From Alphaproteobacteria bacterium (GTDB lineage Bacteria > Pseudomonadota > Alphaproteobacteria > UBA8366), in assembly GCA_028281325.1 (NCBI GenBank), contig JANQKC010000035.1:248001-312000 (forward strand): DNA of 64,000 bases. The letters run 5' to 3'. Shown here piece after piece: positions 24,101-54,320 of this stretch. A model generated the notes under the pieces. It did not search any database, was not told the DNA's origin, and worked only from the letters and a program-made list of their open reading frames with translations. The translations under genes were made by a program, and so were the position numbers. Each line of letters starts with the position of its first letter. Positions within the stretch are counted from its first letter, which is position 1.

Positions 24101-24865
24101 ATGCATGGCGTATTCGTCACGGCCCTGTGTTTTCTGCTCGTCCTTCCCGCTTGCGGGACGGCCGAAATCGATCGGCGTGAACGCAGCGTTTATCTGGGCG
24201 ATCACGCGGCCATGCACATGCTCCTGCTCGAGTCCATTCGGGAACACACCAAAGCGACCGCCCCCCGAACCGGCATTCCGACGATCGACGATAAGGTTAT
24301 GAAAGCGCTGGCCAAAATTCCCCGGCACGAATTCGTTCCGGAGCCTTTGCGCGCGCTGGCCTATCTCGACATCCCGTTGCCGTTAGGGCATCAGCAGAAG
24401 ATTTCCCAGCCTTTCCTGATCGCTTTGATGACCCACATCGCCCAAGTCAAAAAAACCGATGTCGTCTTCGAAACCGGCACCGGCGCCGGCTATCAGGCCG
24501 CGATCCTCGCCGAACTGGCGGCGTCGGTATATAGCGTGGAAGTCGTCGCCCCCCTCGCCCGGTCCGCCGCCGAGCGCCTTGAGAAGCTCGGATTCGACCA
24601 AGTGCAGGTGAAAACAGGCGACGGATACTACGGTTGGGCGGAAAAAGGGCCCTATGACGTGATTATCGTCAAGGAAGCGGTCCATCATATTCCACCCCCC
24701 TTGCTGAACCAGTTGAAACCGGGTGGCCGCATGGTGGCCCCGGTCGGGCCGCTGGATCAGGGGCAAATGCTGAAACTTGTGACCAAAGACCAGAATGGCG
24801 TCATTTCACAAAAAGATATCTTGCCGGTCCGCTTCGCGCCGCTCCAGGGCGGCGAGCGGATTTAG
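24101..24865 (+). CDS. pcm: Lipobox-bearing protein-L-isoaspartate O-methyltransferase
   Basis: A 254-residue Pcm-like enzyme that methylates isoaspartyl residues to allow their repair. The SAM-binding motif ETGTGAGYQA is at 124-133, and the substrate region LGHQQKISQPFLIALM at about 95-110 matches Pcm. Unusually, the N-terminus is a hydrophobic stretch ending in LPAC (residues 15-18), a good lipobox, so it may be an exported lipoprotein. The N-region lacks a positive charge from the ATG at 24101. A TTG 9 codons upstream would add Lys and Arg and improve the signal. AAAAAGGA lies upstream. Confidence 0.85.
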   Translation: MHGVFVTALCFLLVLPACGTAEIDRRERSVYLGDHAAMHMLLLESIREHTKATAPRTGIPTIDDKVMKALAKIPRHEFVPEPLRALAYLDIPLPLGHQQKISQPFLIALMTHIAQVKKTDVVFETGTGAGYQAAILAELAASVYSVEVVAPLARSAAERLEKLGFDQVQVKTGDGYYGWAEKGPYDVIIVKEAVHHIPPPLLNQLKPGGRMVAPVGPLDQGQMLKLVTKDQNGVISQKDILPVRFAPLQGGERI

Positions 24866-25100
24866 CGGCCTGCCGCGGGAACACAGGAATTCCCCGCAAC
24901 ATCTTAACGCCGGTTTAACGGGCGCCATGGCACCTTCGCCCGACGCTCAAACCATCGGAAGCGCCGGTGTTCGCCAAGAATGCCCTGCCCCAGTCAAATT
25001 TCAGCCGCATCGATTTTTCAGTGTCCGCCCTTGTAAATAAACATCGTTCAATTTATATAACAGTACAGTCGAATTCAGCCCACCGGATAACCCCCAACGT

Positions 25101-43420: not shown

Positions 43421-45517
43421 ATGTCCGAAACCAATCTCGCCGACGCTCTCTTCACACCACGCTCCATCGCGCTCATCGGCGCCTCGGATAAACCGGGGGC
43501 GAATAACTCCCGAACGCAGGTCTATCTGGAAAAACACGGCTATCAGGGTACGGTCTACCCAGTTCATCCAACGCGCGAGACGGTCTATGGCGTCAAATGC
43601 TATCCGTCGGTGACGGACATTCCCGACCAAGTCGACCACGCCTTCATCACCACACCGCCGAAGACCGTCCCGAAGATCATCCGCGAGTGCGGTGACGCGA
43701 ACGTTCCCGTGGCCACCGTCTTCACCTCGGACTTTGCGGAAGCCGGCGGCGACGGCGTCCGGCTGCAGGAAGAGCTTATCGAGGCGGCCAAAACGGCCGG
43801 GGTCCGGTTGATCGGACCGAACTGCATGGGCGTCTACAATACCGACCCGCCCGCGACGATCGCGCCGAATACGGTGTTGCAACTGCCGACGCTGAACAAA
43901 GGCAATCTTGGCGTCATCTCCCACAGCGGCAGCCTTACGGGCACCTTCATATCGCGCGGTCAGGCGCGCGGGCTCGGCTTTTCCAAGATCGTATCGATCG
44001 GAAACGAGAGCGACGTTTCCGTCGCCGAGGTCGGCGAGATCCTCGTGGACGATCCGAAGACCGAAGCGATCCTTCTATTCCTGGAGACGATACGGTCCGC
44101 CGATGCCTTCGCCGCCATGGCGCGGCGCGCCTACGACGCCGGAAAACCCATCATCGTCTACAAACTCGGCCGGTCGGAAGCGGCCCAACAATTCACCGCG
44201 TCCCACACCGGCGCAATCGCGGGCACCGACGCGGCCGTCGATGCCTTCTTCCGGCACCACGGCATCATCCGGGTCGACCTGTTCGAAACCCTCTTCGAGC
44301 TGCCGCTGTTGCTCCTGGGGCGCAAGCCGAAACCGGGCAAGACCGTGTCCGTGCTCAGCACCACGGGCGGCGGCGGCGGCATGGTGGTCGACAGCCTCGG
44401 CCGCCAAGGGATCGACGCCGTCGGCATTCCCGATGCAAAGGCACGCGCATTATTGGACCAAGGGGCGGTTTTTTCGAACGGCCCGCTGATCGACCTGACG
44501 TTCAACGGGACGAACCCGAAGAACACATCGTTGTTGCTCAACGAACTGCTGGCCATGCCCGAAAATGACGGCGTGATCATGGTCGTCGGCTCGTCGGCGC
44601 AGTTCAATCCGGAGAATGCGGTCAAACCGTTCCTGGACCTGGCGGATTCGGAAAAACCGATCGGGGCCTTCCTGGTGCCGACCGCCGAGAAATCGAACCA
44701 GATGCTGACCAACGCAGGCATCGCTGCCTTCCGGACACCCGAGGGCTGCGCGGATGCTTTTCGTTGCTGTTTGAGTTGGCAACCGCCCATCCCGGTGCCG
44801 GAAGCACCCTCCTTCGATGATGACAGAATGGCCGCGTTGGTCGACGACTTGCCGGCCGGCACCGCCGACGAGGAAAGAGCCCGCACCGTTTTCGGCACGC
44901 TCGGCGTGCCACAGGTCGCGGCCGCCACAGCGCGGAACGCGGACGCGGGCCTCGCAATTGCCGAGTCCGTCGGTTTTCCCATGGTCGCCAAGATCCTTTC
45001 CCCTGACATCGCCCATAAGACCGAAGCCGGCGGCGTCGAATTGAACATTACCGACACGGACGCGCTGGCCAACGCCCTCGCCATCATTCAAGAACGTGTC
45101 GCCAGCCACAATCCGTCGGCCGAATTGAACGGATTCCTGCTGCAACGCATGGAGCGCGGCCTCGCCGAAGTGTTGCTCGGCTATCGCGTGGACTCGCTCG
45201 TCGGCCCAACCGTGGTCCTCGGCGCCGGCGGCGTCCTGTCGGAGATTTACGGCGACATCGCCATCCGCATCGCACCGGTTTCGGTGGAAACCGCACGGGA
45301 GATGATCGAGGAAGTAGACGGCCTCGCGCCGATCCGCGGCTATCGGGGGATGCCCAAGGGCGACCTGGACGCGCTGGCCGACGCCATCGTCGCCGTTTCC
45401 AACCTGGCCCGGCTGAACGGCGCGCGCATAACGGAAGCGGAGATCAACCCGCTTCTGGTCAAGCCGGAAGGCAACGGCGTCGTCGCGGTCGACGGCCTGA
45501 TCGTCGCCAAGGCCTAG
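43421..45517 (+). CDS. NDP-forming acyl-CoA synthetase (acetate-CoA ligase family)
   Basis: A 698-residue fused alpha/beta ADP-forming acyl-CoA synthetase. The CoA-binding domain is at about 1-135 and the ligase CoA domains at about 150-450, with the phospho-His in SHTGAIAGTD (H262). An ATP-grasp domain is at about 480-698 (FPMVAKILSPDIAHKTEAGGV, VLGAGGVLSEIY, ending ITEAEINPLLV). It converts a carboxylate, CoA and ATP to acyl-CoA and ADP. Divergent from the TPR gene. A second, truncated copy of its last 48 codons lies at 46434-46571. Confidence 0.92.
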   Translation: MSETNLADALFTPRSIALIGASDKPGANNSRTQVYLEKHGYQGTVYPVHPTRETVYGVKCYPSVTDIPDQVDHAFITTPPKTVPKIIRECGDANVPVATVFTSDFAEAGGDGVRLQEELIEAAKTAGVRLIGPNCMGVYNTDPPATIAPNTVLQLPTLNKGNLGVISHSGSLTGTFISRGQARGLGFSKIVSIGNESDVSVAEVGEILVDDPKTEAILLFLETIRSADAFAAMARRAYDAGKPIIVYKLGRSEAAQQFTASHTGAIAGTDAAVDAFFRHHGIIRVDLFETLFELPLLLLGRKPKPGKTVSVLSTTGGGGGMVVDSLGRQGIDAVGIPDAKARALLDQGAVFSNGPLIDLTFNGTNPKNTSLLLNELLAMPENDGVIMVVGSSAQFNPENAVKPFLDLADSEKPIGAFLVPTAEKSNQMLTNAGIAAFRTPEGCADAFRCCLSWQPPIPVPEAPSFDDDRMAALVDDLPAGTADEERARTVFGTLGVPQVAAATARNADAGLAIAESVGFPMVAKILSPDIAHKTEAGGVELNITDTDALANALAIIQERVASHNPSAELNGFLLQRMERGLAEVLLGYRVDSLVGPTVVLGAGGVLSEIYGDIAIRIAPVSVETAREMIEEVDGLAPIRGYRGMPKGDLDALADAIVAVSNLARLNGARITEAEINPLLVKPEGNGVVAVDGLIVAKA

Positions 45518-46433
45518 TCCATGAAGTCACCTAGCTGATTCTTGAACCGACCGAGGCACAAATCAACTTTATCTAGCCGATCGATGAAAACCATTTTGCT
45601 CCAATTCGGCATATTCACTTTTATTTCGATGTCTCGAAAAAGCGCTTCAGTTGATCAATATGCTCAATCCACTCAGGCAAAAAATCGACTAAGTCAACAT
45701 CGTTGACATCGATGTATTGTTTTGGATCCTTGAGCGAATTTCCGAGTTCAATCAGAAAGTTAACCCGGTAATTGAAGTGCGTCGAAAACATCTTGCGCAC
45801 CAATTCGCGATCAACTAATCCCGTATCGATTAACACCCAGAGCTGAGACCAAAAACCAATAAAAATTGAAACTGATTCGTACGGAGTGATCGTGTCGTGA
45901 GAAGGCAAATGTTGGTATATATTCTCTTCAAAATCGTCTAATCGAAATCCTTTCTCATCTCGGAAAAATCTGTTTAACGCAATCTGCTCGGAACGATGCA
46001 GCCATCCATAAATGAATTGCTCTACAAATCGTTTCTTCCGATCCCCCTCAATAGACTCCCAAAGAAGCTGGAACCGCCAAACCGGACTGCTTACCTTCGA
46101 ATAGAAATCAGCGCTGTTGTAGATTCGAAAGAGTTCTACCGCTTCCTTCGTTGAACGTTCTTTGCGCGCATGCCTTTGCGATAGAAATGAGGAAAAAAAG
46201 TAGGCGGCTGTCACCACCGAGCCAACGATAGTGATCAAAAGCGAGAGTTTTTGGAATTCACTCAAGACGCGCCCCCTGCCTAGCCCACCTGCGTATTATC
46301 TTTGACCAAGTGGTGGTTGACAATTCACCGGGCAGTCAAATCGCAAGATGAATTCTTAATAGAAATCAATGCGATTTATACATTCAAACTGTTGAGAAAA
46401 CGCGATTCGAAGAATCAATCTGATCGATTTCCA
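45518..46433. mobile_element. AT-rich genomic islet bounded by two synthetase 3' ends
   Basis: The base composition changes abruptly just after the synthetase stop and returns at 46434, where a second copy of the synthetase 3' end begins. The islet holds one minus-strand gene and about 100 and 170 bp of flanking non-coding DNA without tRNA, integrase, transposase or inverted terminal repeats that I can find. Its foreign origin is an inference from composition. Whether it inserted or replaced a deleted paralogue is open. Confidence 0.55.
45621..46265 (-). CDS. Membrane-anchored hypothetical protein in AT-rich islet
   Basis: A 214-residue protein I do not recognise. It has one N-terminal membrane helix (about 8-28, LLITIVGSVVTAAYFFSSFL) followed by a basic stop-transfer (RHARKERS) and a mostly helical domain rich in aromatic, charged residues (WRFQLLWESI, FVEQFIYGWLHRSEQIALNRFF). 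The topology resembles DUF4760-type small proteins, without certainty. The start is TTG at 46265, supported by an AGGGGG 6 bases upstream. Codon use (AT-rich third positions, many Lys, Phe, Ile, Asn) is unlike all neighbours, so recent horizontal transfer is likely. Confidence 0.75.
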   Translation of the reverse strand: MSEFQKLSLLITIVGSVVTAAYFFSSFLSQRHARKERSTKEAVELFRIYNSADFYSKVSSPVWRFQLLWESIEGDRKKRFVEQFIYGWLHRSEQIALNRFFRDEKGFRLDDFEENIYQHLPSHDTITPYESVSIFIGFWSQLWVLIDTGLVDRELVRKMFSTHFNYRVNFLIELGNSLKDPKQYIDVNDVDLVDFLPEWIEHIDQLKRFFETSK

Positions 46434-46571
46434 TTGGCCGACGCCATCGACGCCGTTTCCAACCTCGCCCGGCTAGACGGCTCCCGCGTCTCGGAAGCCG
46501 AGACCAACCCGCTTTTGATCAAGCCGGAAGGTGTCGTCGCGGTCGACGGCCTGATCGTCGCCGAGGCCTAA
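46434..46571 (+). pseudogene. Truncated second copy of the acyl-CoA synthetase 3' end
   Basis: This segment matches the last 48 codons of the synthetase gene at 45374-45517: by my base-by-base alignment 121 of 138 aligned bases are identical, plus a 6-base in-frame gap. The frame is intact to its own stop (VAVDGLIVAEA) but there is no start or upstream ATP-grasp domain, so it is a remnant of a tandem paralogue or a duplication made with the islet. Its last four bases overlap the end of leuD on the other strand. Confidence 0.8.
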
Positions 46572-47197
46572 GCCGACGGTTCAGGCCGGAAAAGCCAACT
46601 CGCTTCCTTCTTGTATTGTTCCTCGAAAGCGTCGAAATCCGCATCGTATTGCTCGGTCAGCCCGATGTGATCGAGGCCTTCCATCATGCAGTGTTTCTGA
46701 AACGGGTCGATCTCGAACCCGTAGGTGGAACCGTCCGGACCGGTCACCGTTTGCGCACCCAGTTCGACGGTGATCGCCGCCCCCGCATTGTCATGCAGCA
46801 ACCGGCGCAACGCCGCGCAATCTTCCTTCGGCAAACGGATAGGCAGCATGCCGTTCTTCATGCCGTTGTTGTAGTGAATGTCGCCGAAGCTGGGCGCGAT
46901 CACGCAGCGGAAGTTGTTGGCGAGCAAGGTCCAGACCGCCGCTTCGCGCGACGAGCCGCAGCCCCAGTTATCGTCCGCAACGATGATCTGTGCGTCCTTA
47001 TACGGTTCCTGGTTCAGGATGAAATCGTCGCGCTGGCTGCCGTCCTTGTTCCGGCGCAAATCATGGAAGAAGAAAGTGTCGTACTCGGGGTCGGTCCGCA
47101 CGCGCTTGAGGAACCGGGCGGGAATGATCTGATCCGTGTCGACATTGACCATGTCGAGCGGCACGGCCGTAGCGGTCAAGGTGGTGAAGGCTTCCAT
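46568..47197 (-). CDS. leuD: 3-isopropylmalate dehydratase small subunit
   Basis: A 209-residue swivel subunit with NVDTDQIIPARFLKRV near 18-34, DDNWGCGSSREAAVWTL (about 75-91) and the C-terminal EEQYKKE region, as in LeuD. With LeuC it isomerises 2- to 3-isopropylmalate in leucine synthesis. Members of this family also act on citramalate or other methylmalates. ATG at 47197, one base after the leuC stop. Truncated-synthetase DNA abuts its 3' end. Confidence 0.92.
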   Translation of the reverse strand: MEAFTTLTATAVPLDMVNVDTDQIIPARFLKRVRTDPEYDTFFFHDLRRNKDGSQRDDFILNQEPYKDAQIIVADDNWGCGSSREAAVWTLLANNFRCVIAPSFGDIHYNNGMKNGMLPIRLPKEDCAALRRLLHDNAGAAITVELGAQTVTGPDGSTYGFEIDPFQKHCMMEGLDHIGLTEQYDADFDAFEEQYKKEASWLFRPEPSA

Positions 47198-48708: not shown

Positions 48709-49620
48709 TTACATCATGTTTCCAGAGACAACGCGCGCCGAACGGCGACGATGCACGACGATCTCGCGATGTAAGATATAAAGCCCGCTCAACACGACAA
48801 GGGACGTGCCGCCGATCATCCATCCATCCGGAATGTCCCCCCAAACCAAGAAGCCGATCAAAATGGCCCAGACGATGCTGAGATACTTGAACGGCGACAC
48901 GAGCGCCGTCTCGGCATGACGAAAAGTATCGATCATGAAGTAATGCCCGGCCGTCACGAGGATACCGGACGCGACGATCACCCCCATGTCGAACAGGGTC
49001 GGCATCCGCCAGCCGAACGGCAGGGTCATCAACCCGGCCCACATTAAAGCCAACGTCGTCGTGAGCAAGATGGCCATCGATGATTCGTTGTTCGTCATCC
49101 GGCGCGTCACCACATCCCGGATCGCCGCCCCGAAGGCCGCGCCCAACGGCAGGAGGGCCGCCAGTTGAACCGCCTCCCCCGCCGGGCGCGTGATCAGCAA
49201 TATGCCGCTGAAGCCGACGATGACGGCCATCCAGCGCCGCCACCCGACACTCTCGCCCAAGAACGGTCCCGCCATCGCGGTTACGAACAGCGGGCCGGCG
49301 AAGGTGATGGCGGTGGTTTCCCCGAGCGGCAGATAGCGCAGGCCGAGGATGAAACAGAATGTCGAGAAAACCATGCAGCCTGCGCGGACCAGGTGGCCTG
49401 AAATCCGATTGACCCGTAGGCTGTTCAGGCCGCCTGTGAATCGGATGAGAACCAGGATCGACAAGATCGTGAAAATACCGCGCAGGAACAGCACCTCGCC
49501 CGGCGGATACCCCGACACCCATTTGAGCATGGCATTGTTCACCGCCATGAACACGCCGCCCAATATCATGTAAACGATGCCGCGGACCGGCGCCGACGAA
49601 GAGGAGGTCGATACCGTCAT
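48709..49620 (-). CDS. DMT-family transporter (EamA), second of a tandem pair
   Basis: A 303-residue inner-membrane carrier with ten predicted helices in two EamA repeats (MILGGVFMAVNNAMLKWV, FILGLRYLPLGETTAITFAGPLFV, MIDTFRHAETALVSPFKYLSIVWA). The ATG overlaps the stop of the upstream paralogue as ATGA, so the two are translationally coupled. By eye about half its residues match the neighbour. Substrate unknown; the family exports amino acids and other metabolites. The pair could function as a heterodimer. Confidence 0.9.
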   Translation of the reverse strand: MTVSTSSSSAPVRGIVYMILGGVFMAVNNAMLKWVSGYPPGEVLFLRGIFTILSILVLIRFTGGLNSLRVNRISGHLVRAGCMVFSTFCFILGLRYLPLGETTAITFAGPLFVTAMAGPFLGESVGWRRWMAVIVGFSGILLITRPAGEAVQLAALLPLGAAFGAAIRDVVTRRMTNNESSMAILLTTTLALMWAGLMTLPFGWRMPTLFDMGVIVASGILVTAGHYFMIDTFRHAETALVSPFKYLSIVWAILIGFLVWGDIPDGWMIGGTSLVVLSGLYILHREIVVHRRRSARVVSGNMM

Positions 49621-50513: not shown

Positions 50514-50937
50514 GACACGGCGTCAGCGGCGACAATCGACGACCGAACGGAACGACGACAAACCGTCGTATTGCAGACAAGCCAATCACTCGGCTGCCTG
50601 GGCATCATGCGTCTGCATAGGGGGATATTCCTTGGGAATGAAAGCCGCACTCGGCATGCGAATCATAACAGCGCCTCCCGCCATCGACAATCCATCGCCG
50701 GGTGAAGACCCTCGGCCGTTCGCCGCTGCGACCTTTGACGCCGCAGGATGATGCGGAAAGGGCGCCCGGGTTCATTGGCGGTTCTCGATGCGCCGGATTG
50801 CCGCCGCCGATTGACTCGCCCGAGGCGCCGATTTAGTTAATCTCACAGGTGGAATTGGTCCGGACAAAAATTCCGGCCGCTCACGGTATAATTGTCCTTG
50901 AGGCAATGATTTCCGTTCCAAACAAGGGAGTTACGCC
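50514..50937. promoter_or_regulatory. Divergent intergenic region, promoter of the acyl-CoA operon
   Basis: Contains a TATAAT at 50887-50892, 46 bp before the first lyase gene, and AAGGGAG 7 bases before its ATG. Just upstream, GGAATT (50851-50856) and AATTCC (50869-50874) flank a near-palindromic TTGGTCCGGACAA, a plausible operator overlapping the -35 region. The remaining 300 bp show no gene or repeat that I can support. Confidence 0.45.
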
Positions 50938-51924: not shown

Positions 51925-53112
51925 ATGTCGGATATCGACGCATCGGTCCCGTGCGGACAGGACTATCCGGAAATCCGCGAGTCCGTCATGAAACTCTGCG
52001 CCGATTTTCCGGCGGAGTATTGGCGCGACCTGGAGAACCAGCCGCCGTCGGGCAGCTATCCGACGGATTTCGTCCAAGCGCTGACCGATGCGGGATATCT
52101 CGCCGCCTTGATCCCGGAAGAATACGGCGGCGCCGGCCTGCCGATCCGCGCCGGTGCGGTAATCCTGGAGACGATCAATACGGCCGGATGCAGCGCGTCG
52201 GCCTGCCATGCCCAGATGTACACCATGGGCACGGTCCTGCGGCACGGCACCCCCGACCAAAAGAACGAGTATCTGCCGAAGATCGCCGCCGGCGAGTTGC
52301 GGCTGCAGGCTTTCGCCATCACCGAGCCGACCACCGGGTCGGACACGACGCAACTCAAGACACGGGCCGAGAAGGACGGCAACGGGTATCGGATCAACGG
52401 GCAGAAGGTCTGGATCAGCCGAGCCGCCCATTCGGACCTGATGCTCCTGCTGGCGCGCACGACACCGCCCGAGGAGTCGAAACGGCGGACCGACGGCATT
52501 TCGACCTTCCTGGTCGACATGCGGGAAGCCAAGGGCAACGGCCTGGAGATCCGGCCCATCGACGCCATGGTGAACCACAACACGACCGAGGTGTTCTTCG
52601 ACGACCTCAAGATTCCCGCGAGCAGCCTGATCGGCGAGGAAGGCAAAGGATTCCGTTATATCCTCGACGGCATGAACGCGGAGCGCTGCCTGGTGTCGAG
52701 CGAGGCCATCGGTAACGGCCGCTACTTCGTGAAGAAGGCGGTCGACTACGCGAACGAACGGGTGGTGTTCGGCCGCCCGATCGGCCAGAACCAAGGCATC
52801 CAGTTCCCGATCGCCAGCGCCTACGCCCAGTTGGAAGCCGCCGACCTCATGGTTCAGAAGGCGACCGCCATGTTCGACGCGGGCGTGCCTTGCGGCGCGG
52901 AAGCGAATATCGGCAAGTTCCTGTCGGGCGACGCGGCCTGGGCCTGCGCCGAAGCCTGCTTCACGACCTTCGGCGGATTCGCCTTCGCCCGGGAATACGA
53001 CGTGGAACGCAAATGGCGGGAATGCCGGTTGTCGCGGAACGCGCCGGTCGCCCCGAACATGATCATGAATTTCATCGGCCAGCATGTCCTCGGCATGCCG
53101 CGGTCCTACTGA
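51925..53112 (+). CDS. Acyl-CoA dehydrogenase, tandem copy 1
   Basis: A 395-residue FAD-dependent acyl-CoA dehydrogenase with QAFAITEPTTGSDTTQLKT and ERVVFGRPIGQNQGIQFPI. The usual C-terminal catalytic Glu (EGTNE motif) is absent: the matching place reads VAPNMIM. Instead a Glu stands in DGMNAER, where isovaleryl-CoA and long-chain dehydrogenases carry theirs, implying branched or unusual substrates. About three quarters identical by eye to the next gene, 20 bases downstream. Confidence 0.88.
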   Translation: MSDIDASVPCGQDYPEIRESVMKLCADFPAEYWRDLENQPPSGSYPTDFVQALTDAGYLAALIPEEYGGAGLPIRAGAVILETINTAGCSASACHAQMYTMGTVLRHGTPDQKNEYLPKIAAGELRLQAFAITEPTTGSDTTQLKTRAEKDGNGYRINGQKVWISRAAHSDLMLLLARTTPPEESKRRTDGISTFLVDMREAKGNGLEIRPIDAMVNHNTTEVFFDDLKIPASSLIGEEGKGFRYILDGMNAERCLVSSEAIGNGRYFVKKAVDYANERVVFGRPIGQNQGIQFPIASAYAQLEAADLMVQKATAMFDAGVPCGAEANIGKFLSGDAAWACAEACFTTFGGFAFAREYDVERKWRECRLSRNAPVAPNMIMNFIGQHVLGMPRSY

Positions 53113-53132: not shown

Positions 53133-54320
53133 ATGAGCGATACCGAAACCGTCATTGCGATCGGCGAGGATTATCCGGAACTCCGGGATGCGGTGAAGAA
53201 GCTCTGCGCCGATTTCCCGGGCGAATACTGGCGCGGCCTGGAAGACCAGGATGTCGAGGGCAACTATCCAACCGAATTCGTCAAGACACTGACCGAGTCC
53301 GGCTTCCTGGGCGCGTTGATTCCGGAGGAATACGGCGGTGCGGGTCTGCCCCTCCGCGCGGGCGCGGTGATCCTGGAAACGATCCACGAGAGCGGCTGCA
53401 GCGCGGGCGCCGTGCATGCCCAGATGTACACGATGGGCACGGTGCTGCGGCACGGCAGCAAGGAACAGAAGCAGGAATACCTGCCGAAGATCGCCTCCGG
53501 CGAGCTGCGCCTGCAGGCCTTCGGCGTGACCGAACCAACGACCGGCTCGGACACCACGCAGCTCAAGACGCGGGCGGACAAGGACGGTAACGGCTATCGC
53601 ATCAACGGGCAGAAGGTCTGGACCAGCCGGGCACTGCATTCCGACCTGATGCTGTTGCTCGCGCGCACGACGCCGGCGGACCAGACCAAGAAGCGCAGCG
53701 ACGGGCTGTCCTGCTTCCTGGTCGACCTGCGCGACGCCCGCGGCAACGGCTGCGACATCCAGCCGCTCGACGCGATGATCAATCACAACACCACCGAGGT
53801 GTTCTTCGACAATCTGTGGATCCCGTCGTCCAGCCTGATCGGCGAGGAAGGCAAAGGGTTCCGCTATATCCTGGACGGCATGAACGCCGAACGGATTTTG
53901 ATTTCGGCCGAGGCGCTGGGAGACTGCAAATTCTTCGTCGAGAAAGCGGTCGAGTATTCCAAGGAACGCGTCGTCTTCGGCAATCCGATCGGCCAGTATC
54001 AGGGCATCCAGTTCCCCATCGCCAAGGCCTATGCCGAATATCAGGGCGCCGACATGATGGCGCGCAAGGCCGCCGCCCTGTTCGATGCCGGCGAAGCATG
54101 CGGCGCCGAAGCCAACATGGCCAAGCATCTTTCCGGCGAGGCCGCCTGGGCCTGCGGCGAGGCCTGCTTCACAACCCATGGCGGGTTCGCCTTCGCCCGG
54201 GAATACGACGTGGAACGGAAATGGCGCGAGGCGCGTATCTTCCGGACCGCGCCGATTTCGACCAACATGATCCTGGCCTATATCGGCCAACACATCCTGG
54301 GCATGCCGCGATCCTACTGA
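53133..54320 (+). CDS. Acyl-CoA dehydrogenase, tandem copy 2
   Basis: A 395-residue paralogue of the preceding dehydrogenase, with identical ending LGMPRSY and the same absence of the C-terminal EGTNE Glu. The Glu in DGMNAER is kept. AAGGAAGA precedes the ATG at 53133; the frame is open further upstream inside the previous gene but the family start (MSDTETV..) fits here. The duplication may allow two chain types or a heteromeric enzyme. Confidence 0.88.
   Translation: MSDTETVIAIGEDYPELRDAVKKLCADFPGEYWRGLEDQDVEGNYPTEFVKTLTESGFLGALIPEEYGGAGLPLRAGAVILETIHESGCSAGAVHAQMYTMGTVLRHGSKEQKQEYLPKIASGELRLQAFGVTEPTTGSDTTQLKTRADKDGNGYRINGQKVWTSRALHSDLMLLLARTTPADQTKKRSDGLSCFLVDLRDARGNGCDIQPLDAMINHNTTEVFFDNLWIPSSSLIGEEGKGFRYILDGMNAERILISAEALGDCKFFVEKAVEYSKERVVFGNPIGQYQGIQFPIAKAYAEYQGADMMARKAAALFDAGEACGAEANMAKHLSGEAAWACGEACFTTHGGFAFAREYDVERKWREARIFRTAPISTNMILAYIGQHILGMPRSY

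Follow-up and report, generated by a model that had tools for sequence, protein, structure and literature searches.

A single-gene AT-rich islet inside the duplicated 3' end of an acyl-CoA synthetase gene, a probable leftover of phage or island cargo

Introduction

How does a single AT-rich gene come to stand between two chromosomal genes when no integrase or transposase accompanies it? The question is raised by a locus in 64,000 nucleotides of alphaproteobacterial DNA, the whole stretch that was analysed and is called the window here. An earlier note on this DNA had described a foreign one-gene islet wedged after an acyl-CoA synthetase (ACS) gene and had guessed that its gene is defence or toxin-like cargo. 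Here we ask by which route the islet entered, what its gene may encode and whether it could still move. The features on which the argument is built are the following:

43421-45517, plus strand: host gene for a 698-aa ADP-forming ACS (acetate-CoA ligase type; PF13549, PF13607, PF13380)
45375-45517, plus strand: copy 1, the ACS 3' end in use by the gene (on the attL side, if integration occurred as proposed), direct repeat with 46435-46571
45518-46434, no strand: AT-rich islet, apparently inserted, 42.7% GC, missing in the congener G001
45621-46265, minus strand: orphan gene, 214 aa, TTG start, rare unnamed family (open reading frame; weak DUF4760 similarity)
46266-46434, minus strand: AT-rich leader of the orphan gene, holding the promoter-like TTGTCA-17-GATAAT at 46323-46295
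46435-46449, plus strand: 15-bp stretch TGGCCGACGCCATCG, left edge of copy 2, identical to 45375-45389
46435-46571, plus strand: copy 2, apparently what is left of the displaced original ACS 3' end (on the attR side); severed from the rest of the gene and missing 6 nt by an in-frame deletion
46568-47197, minus strand: leuD-type gene, directly after ACS in the empty site (open reading frame; comparison with G001)

Results

The sharp drop in base composition over about 0.9 kb that had been noticed earlier is borne out: the other non-overlapping 917-bp intervals of the window have a mean GC content of 61.7% (sd 2.2, minimum 55.0%). The orphan gene and its two islet flanks have nearly equal GC (42.6, 43.2 and 42.7%), so that the whole segment up to the right border at 46434 looks like one insert. 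The orphan gene is the sole gene of the islet and has the length and start codon that the earlier note gave it; the list of open reading frames likewise holds no integrase or transposase within the islet, as had been claimed. The promoter-like sequence in the leader occurs at chance level (one found, 1.0 expected). An Rfam search gave no match, and further copies of islet DNA of any note were found neither in the own genome nor in close relatives.

The clue to the entry route is a duplication that the earlier note does not mention. The islet does not merely follow the ACS gene: it lies within the ACS 3' end, of which a copy is present on either side. Copy 1 supplies the last 47 codons of the ACS, whose length equals that of the ACS in G001. 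Without gaps, the two copies share 92 of 111 positions, against 58 of 111 for the runner-up match of this length within the window; in a gapped alignment they are 88% identical and the deletion in copy 2 becomes visible. Homology ends exactly at the stop codons and does not extend into the neighbouring gene on the minus strand, which we take to be leuD-type from its sequence and not from a family search. An end precisely at the stop codon points to restoration of the reading frame as the role of copy 1. The stretch TGGCCGACGCCATCG is likely to be the crossover core.

Which of the two copies is the original one? Copy 2 holds the native position, since it abuts leuD like the sole ACS copy of G001. 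It also has more changes unique to it, 11 and the deletion against 4 in copy 1, a difference that is not statistically firm. Position, unique changes and deletion together suggest, from small numbers, that copy 2 is the displaced and unused end. Per bin, identity to G001 is 84–85% in copy 1 and 74–92% in the upstream ACS; by this measure copy 1 does not stand out as foreign against the upstream part of the gene.

G001, the sole sampled congener and our one source of evidence for an empty site, is colinear with the window on both sides of the islet: its ACS is followed immediately by leuD and the islet is missing. The same 130 bp of G001 align to both ACS-end copies. Together with the flanking repeat, the empty site indicates that the islet integrated inside the ACS 3' end and restored that end. 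The orphan gene is also missing from 143 other relatives. The earlier view of a foreign insert is upheld by the empty site, by this absence and by the occurrence of related genes in mobile DNA; vertical inheritance of gene and islet across relatives, named beforehand as the contrary finding, was not seen.

Several other observations concern the same comparison. Elsewhere in the alignment, the large length differences reflect extra DNA in G001 and not in the window, as at 24864-24904 (~6.7 kb) and 50698-50783 (~1.7 kb). At 51959-53112 and 53167-54320, cross-matches of 75–77% with G001 suggest that each of the two genomes has two related genes in tandem. Two tandem ACS paralogues are present at the locus in the same-family relatives G002, G004, G006 and G008 (L033-L036), and one ACS in the genus of the window. 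ARAGORN reports a 95-nt tRNA-Ile (GAT) at 48973-49067 on the minus strand; it lies within a long coding frame and is probably a false positive.

Could the islet still move? XerD and XerC genes usually neighbour accA-type and DUF484-type genes, respectively. The own assembly (98.9% complete) encodes only two tyrosine recombinases, and by gene neighbourhood they are XerC- and XerD-like, with an accA-like gene beside one and a DUF484-like gene beside the other (the neighbours were identified by eye). The assembly had no match to PF00239 (serine recombinases), and neither a dedicated integrase, an excisase nor a complete sister element was found. Since there is no integrase in the islet and no dedicated integrase or helper elsewhere in the assembly, the islet is probably grounded now.

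The orphan protein has one N-terminal hydrophobic helix (Kyte-Doolittle peak at residues 7–25) followed by a basic stretch, and the remainder is helical. The TTG start is supported by a remote relative in L059 (G366) that aligns from the first residue. By the positive-inside rule, the basic stretch would place the remainder of the protein in the cytoplasm, with the helix in the inner membrane. Scans against Pfam, NCBIfam, PADLOC and PHROGs gave nothing above cut-off, and no PADLOC model matched at E values up to 5. DUF4760 (PF15956) scores 17.4 bits (E 0.0053) with the window protein and 16.4 bits (E 0.011) with the relative in L075 (G844), over overlapping parts of the profile, where the Pfam gathering threshold is 25 bits; a profile-profile comparison by hhalign gave a probability of only 38%. 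A distant tie to DUF4760 is thus possible, at scores below those of a member. Structure models, built from only 2–4 sequences, have a mean pLDDT of 77–78 and a pTM of 0.69–0.73, and fold searches with them identified no known fold. The best PDB matches (Z 5.5–5.7) are unrelated helical repeats, and the best viral match, the unnamed protein A0A3G8F6F1, has an E value of 0.11 and a TM score of about 0.4; we trust neither.

Four remote relatives of the protein were found, in G366, G844, G825 and, truncated, in G900; one of the four lies at a contig edge. In an alignment of four members of the family, few residues are invariant and no catalytic motif can be recognised. The gene in G844 (L075) is convergent with an adjacent tyrosine integrase gene (PF00589/DUF6538). 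That in G825 (L077) is a 33%-GC insert of a prophage, between genes for a terminase small subunit and an HNH protein; the cluster also includes a portal gene. Transposase genes (rve and IS1595) are found a few kilobases from the one in G366 (L059). The members in G844 and G900, which belong to one genus, have different neighbours. These settings associate the family with mobile DNA. Around the relatives in L060 and in L078, which starts at a contig end, no duplicated gene end was found. Searches by tblastn of 50,697 phage and 72,556 plasmid records gave no relatives, nor did pattern scans of genome contigs and viral contigs. Weak class-level matches were inspected and rejected, as most looked unrelated, with sequences resembling permeases and acyl-CoA dehydrogenases. 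Two short frames on the minus strand beside the relative in G366 (L059:799-1398) resemble pieces of one broken membrane-protein gene. In L077 (2535-2738), the prophage-borne relative is followed on the same strand by an AT-rich gene for 67 aa, a possible partner not seen elsewhere.

Discussion

Our results make it very probable that the islet was inserted and that the ACS gene end was replaced in the process. We propose that an integrative element (a prophage, satellite or island) or a mini-version of one recombined site-specifically into the ACS 3' end. It would have carried its own in-frame ACS 3' end, now copy 1, so that the host enzyme stayed whole, and the original end, copy 2, would have been displaced 1.06 kb downstream, where it decays. 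What remains would be an immobile remnant with one kept gene, encoding a helical protein anchored in the inner membrane. An origin from an integrative element or prophage is well supported, and the setting of the few relatives, within a prophage or next to enzymes of mobile DNA, indicates that the islet is probably a leftover of phage or island cargo. It is the architecture of the locus that points to site-specific recombination, for which a tyrosine recombinase would be the plausible agent. The full account, with site-specific integration and a grounded scar of the e14 type that retains one cargo gene, is in our opinion somewhat more probable than its negation.

Two other histories could lead to a second ACS end. 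The ancestor may have had two tandem ACS genes, and the islet took the place of most of the second one, whose 3' end stayed before leuD. The ACS pairs of the four same-family relatives do occupy this position, and in G004 and G008 the upstream paralogue lacks the two residues that are also missing from copy 2. However, in the congener a lone ACS stands directly before leuD, and the 88% identity of the two copies contrasts with the only 61% and 56% protein identity of the G004 paralogues to the window ACS. This history would call for a fresh duplication and for the deletion of over 90% of the second gene, and we consider it highly improbable. Alternatively, no site-specific recombinase took part, and a non-replicating circle integrated by Campbell-type homologous recombination or the cell was transformed with DNA of a relative bearing an ACS-end fragment. 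Either event yields the topology seen here, and RecA could act on copies as similar as these. Still, a random fragment would not be expected to lose homology exactly at the stop codon, as a frame-restoring attP does, and among the relatives of the orphan gene one adjoins an integrase gene and another lies in a prophage. Homologous integration is on balance rather unlikely.

It may be that the orphan protein shields its carrier from other phages through the cytoplasmic domain, by superinfection exclusion or abortive infection; we put this forward tentatively, by analogy, as a minority possibility. The suggestion of defence or toxin-like cargo in the earlier note finds circumstantial support in the one relative in a prophage cargo position, and none in the PADLOC models. 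A membrane protein that is neutral or metabolic and has no part in defence would also fit the integration model. This agrees with the missing PADLOC match, the lack of a known fold and the few invariant residues without a catalytic motif, and we find it quite possible, at a little under even chances. On the other hand, a rare, AT-rich and scattered gene that is kept in cargo positions of prophages and islands would be unusual for metabolism. Another conceivable identity is one member of a toxin-antitoxin or bacteriocin-type pair, the other having been lost. The protein is small, membrane-anchored and encoded in mobile DNA, and the 67-aa neighbour in L077 could be a partner; with no conserved partner beside the other relatives and the gene alone in the window, we regard such a pair as very improbable. 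The most far-reaching proposal, that the orphan represents an undescribed single-gene, membrane-anchored anti-phage family of prophages and integrative elements, kept here as the sole survivor of a target-repairing element, appears doubtful at present.

If the islet arose as we propose, it illustrates a way for one foreign gene to settle in a genome while the gene that it hits stays unharmed. It also suggests that, where an AT-rich islet holds one gene and no integrase, a look for duplication at the end of the neighbouring gene can reveal integration as its source, and such a check could recover many grounded cargo islets. The orphan protein is a member of a very rare and unnamed mobile-DNA family and a small, testable candidate for phage exclusion.

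Known systems resemble the islet and its gene in part. Members of DUF4760 show weak similarity to the C-terminal helical part of the orphan protein and of its relative in L075, and several of them have a similar N-terminal hydrophobic helix. PdpSau is a prophage protein anchored in the membrane by a single helix and has abortive-infection activity (PMC10127798). The orphan protein shares with PdpSau and AbiP a single N-terminal membrane helix, a cytoplasmic C-terminal domain and the status of accessory cargo (PMC10127798), a functional analogy only; PdpSau has an OB-fold-like region, whereas the orphan protein is all-helical in its model. In P2 and P4, cargo loci of prophages and satellites near packaging signals, the hotspots beside cos, hold anti-phage systems (PMC9122126). 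Both PdpSau and these hotspots may be regarded as analogies to the orphan.

As for the islet, cis-mobilizable elements (CIMEs) keep att sites and cargo and have lost their recombination genes (PMC7563491). Similarly, the islet has att-like flanks at a gene 3' end, provided that its repeats are att sites, and cargo without recombination or conjugation genes. It is smaller, 0.9 kb compared to 1.2–13 kb. CIMEs derive from an ICE or IME and are mobilised by accretion with one; no tandem ICE or IME is seen in the window and there is no sign of descent from either, a prophage origin being equally possible.

Phage 21 integrates into icd of E. coli in the same way as prophage e14. On integration, e14 splits a 163-bp end off icd and brings replacement codons (PMC6379469). 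In both e14 and the islet, the insert lies in the 3' end of a protein-coding gene of metabolism, codons of the element restore that end, and the old gene end is left as a relic on the other side (163 bp in e14, 137 bp here). Differently from e14 and phage 21, the islet has one cargo gene only, without phage genes or an integrase, and its target is the ACS gene and not icd. From the hallmarks of such elements, an element-encoded integrase was not found at the locus; the duplicated gene end and, in one congener, the empty site were. It is likely that the islet works like, or derives from, an element that targets gene 3' ends, without being a complete one.
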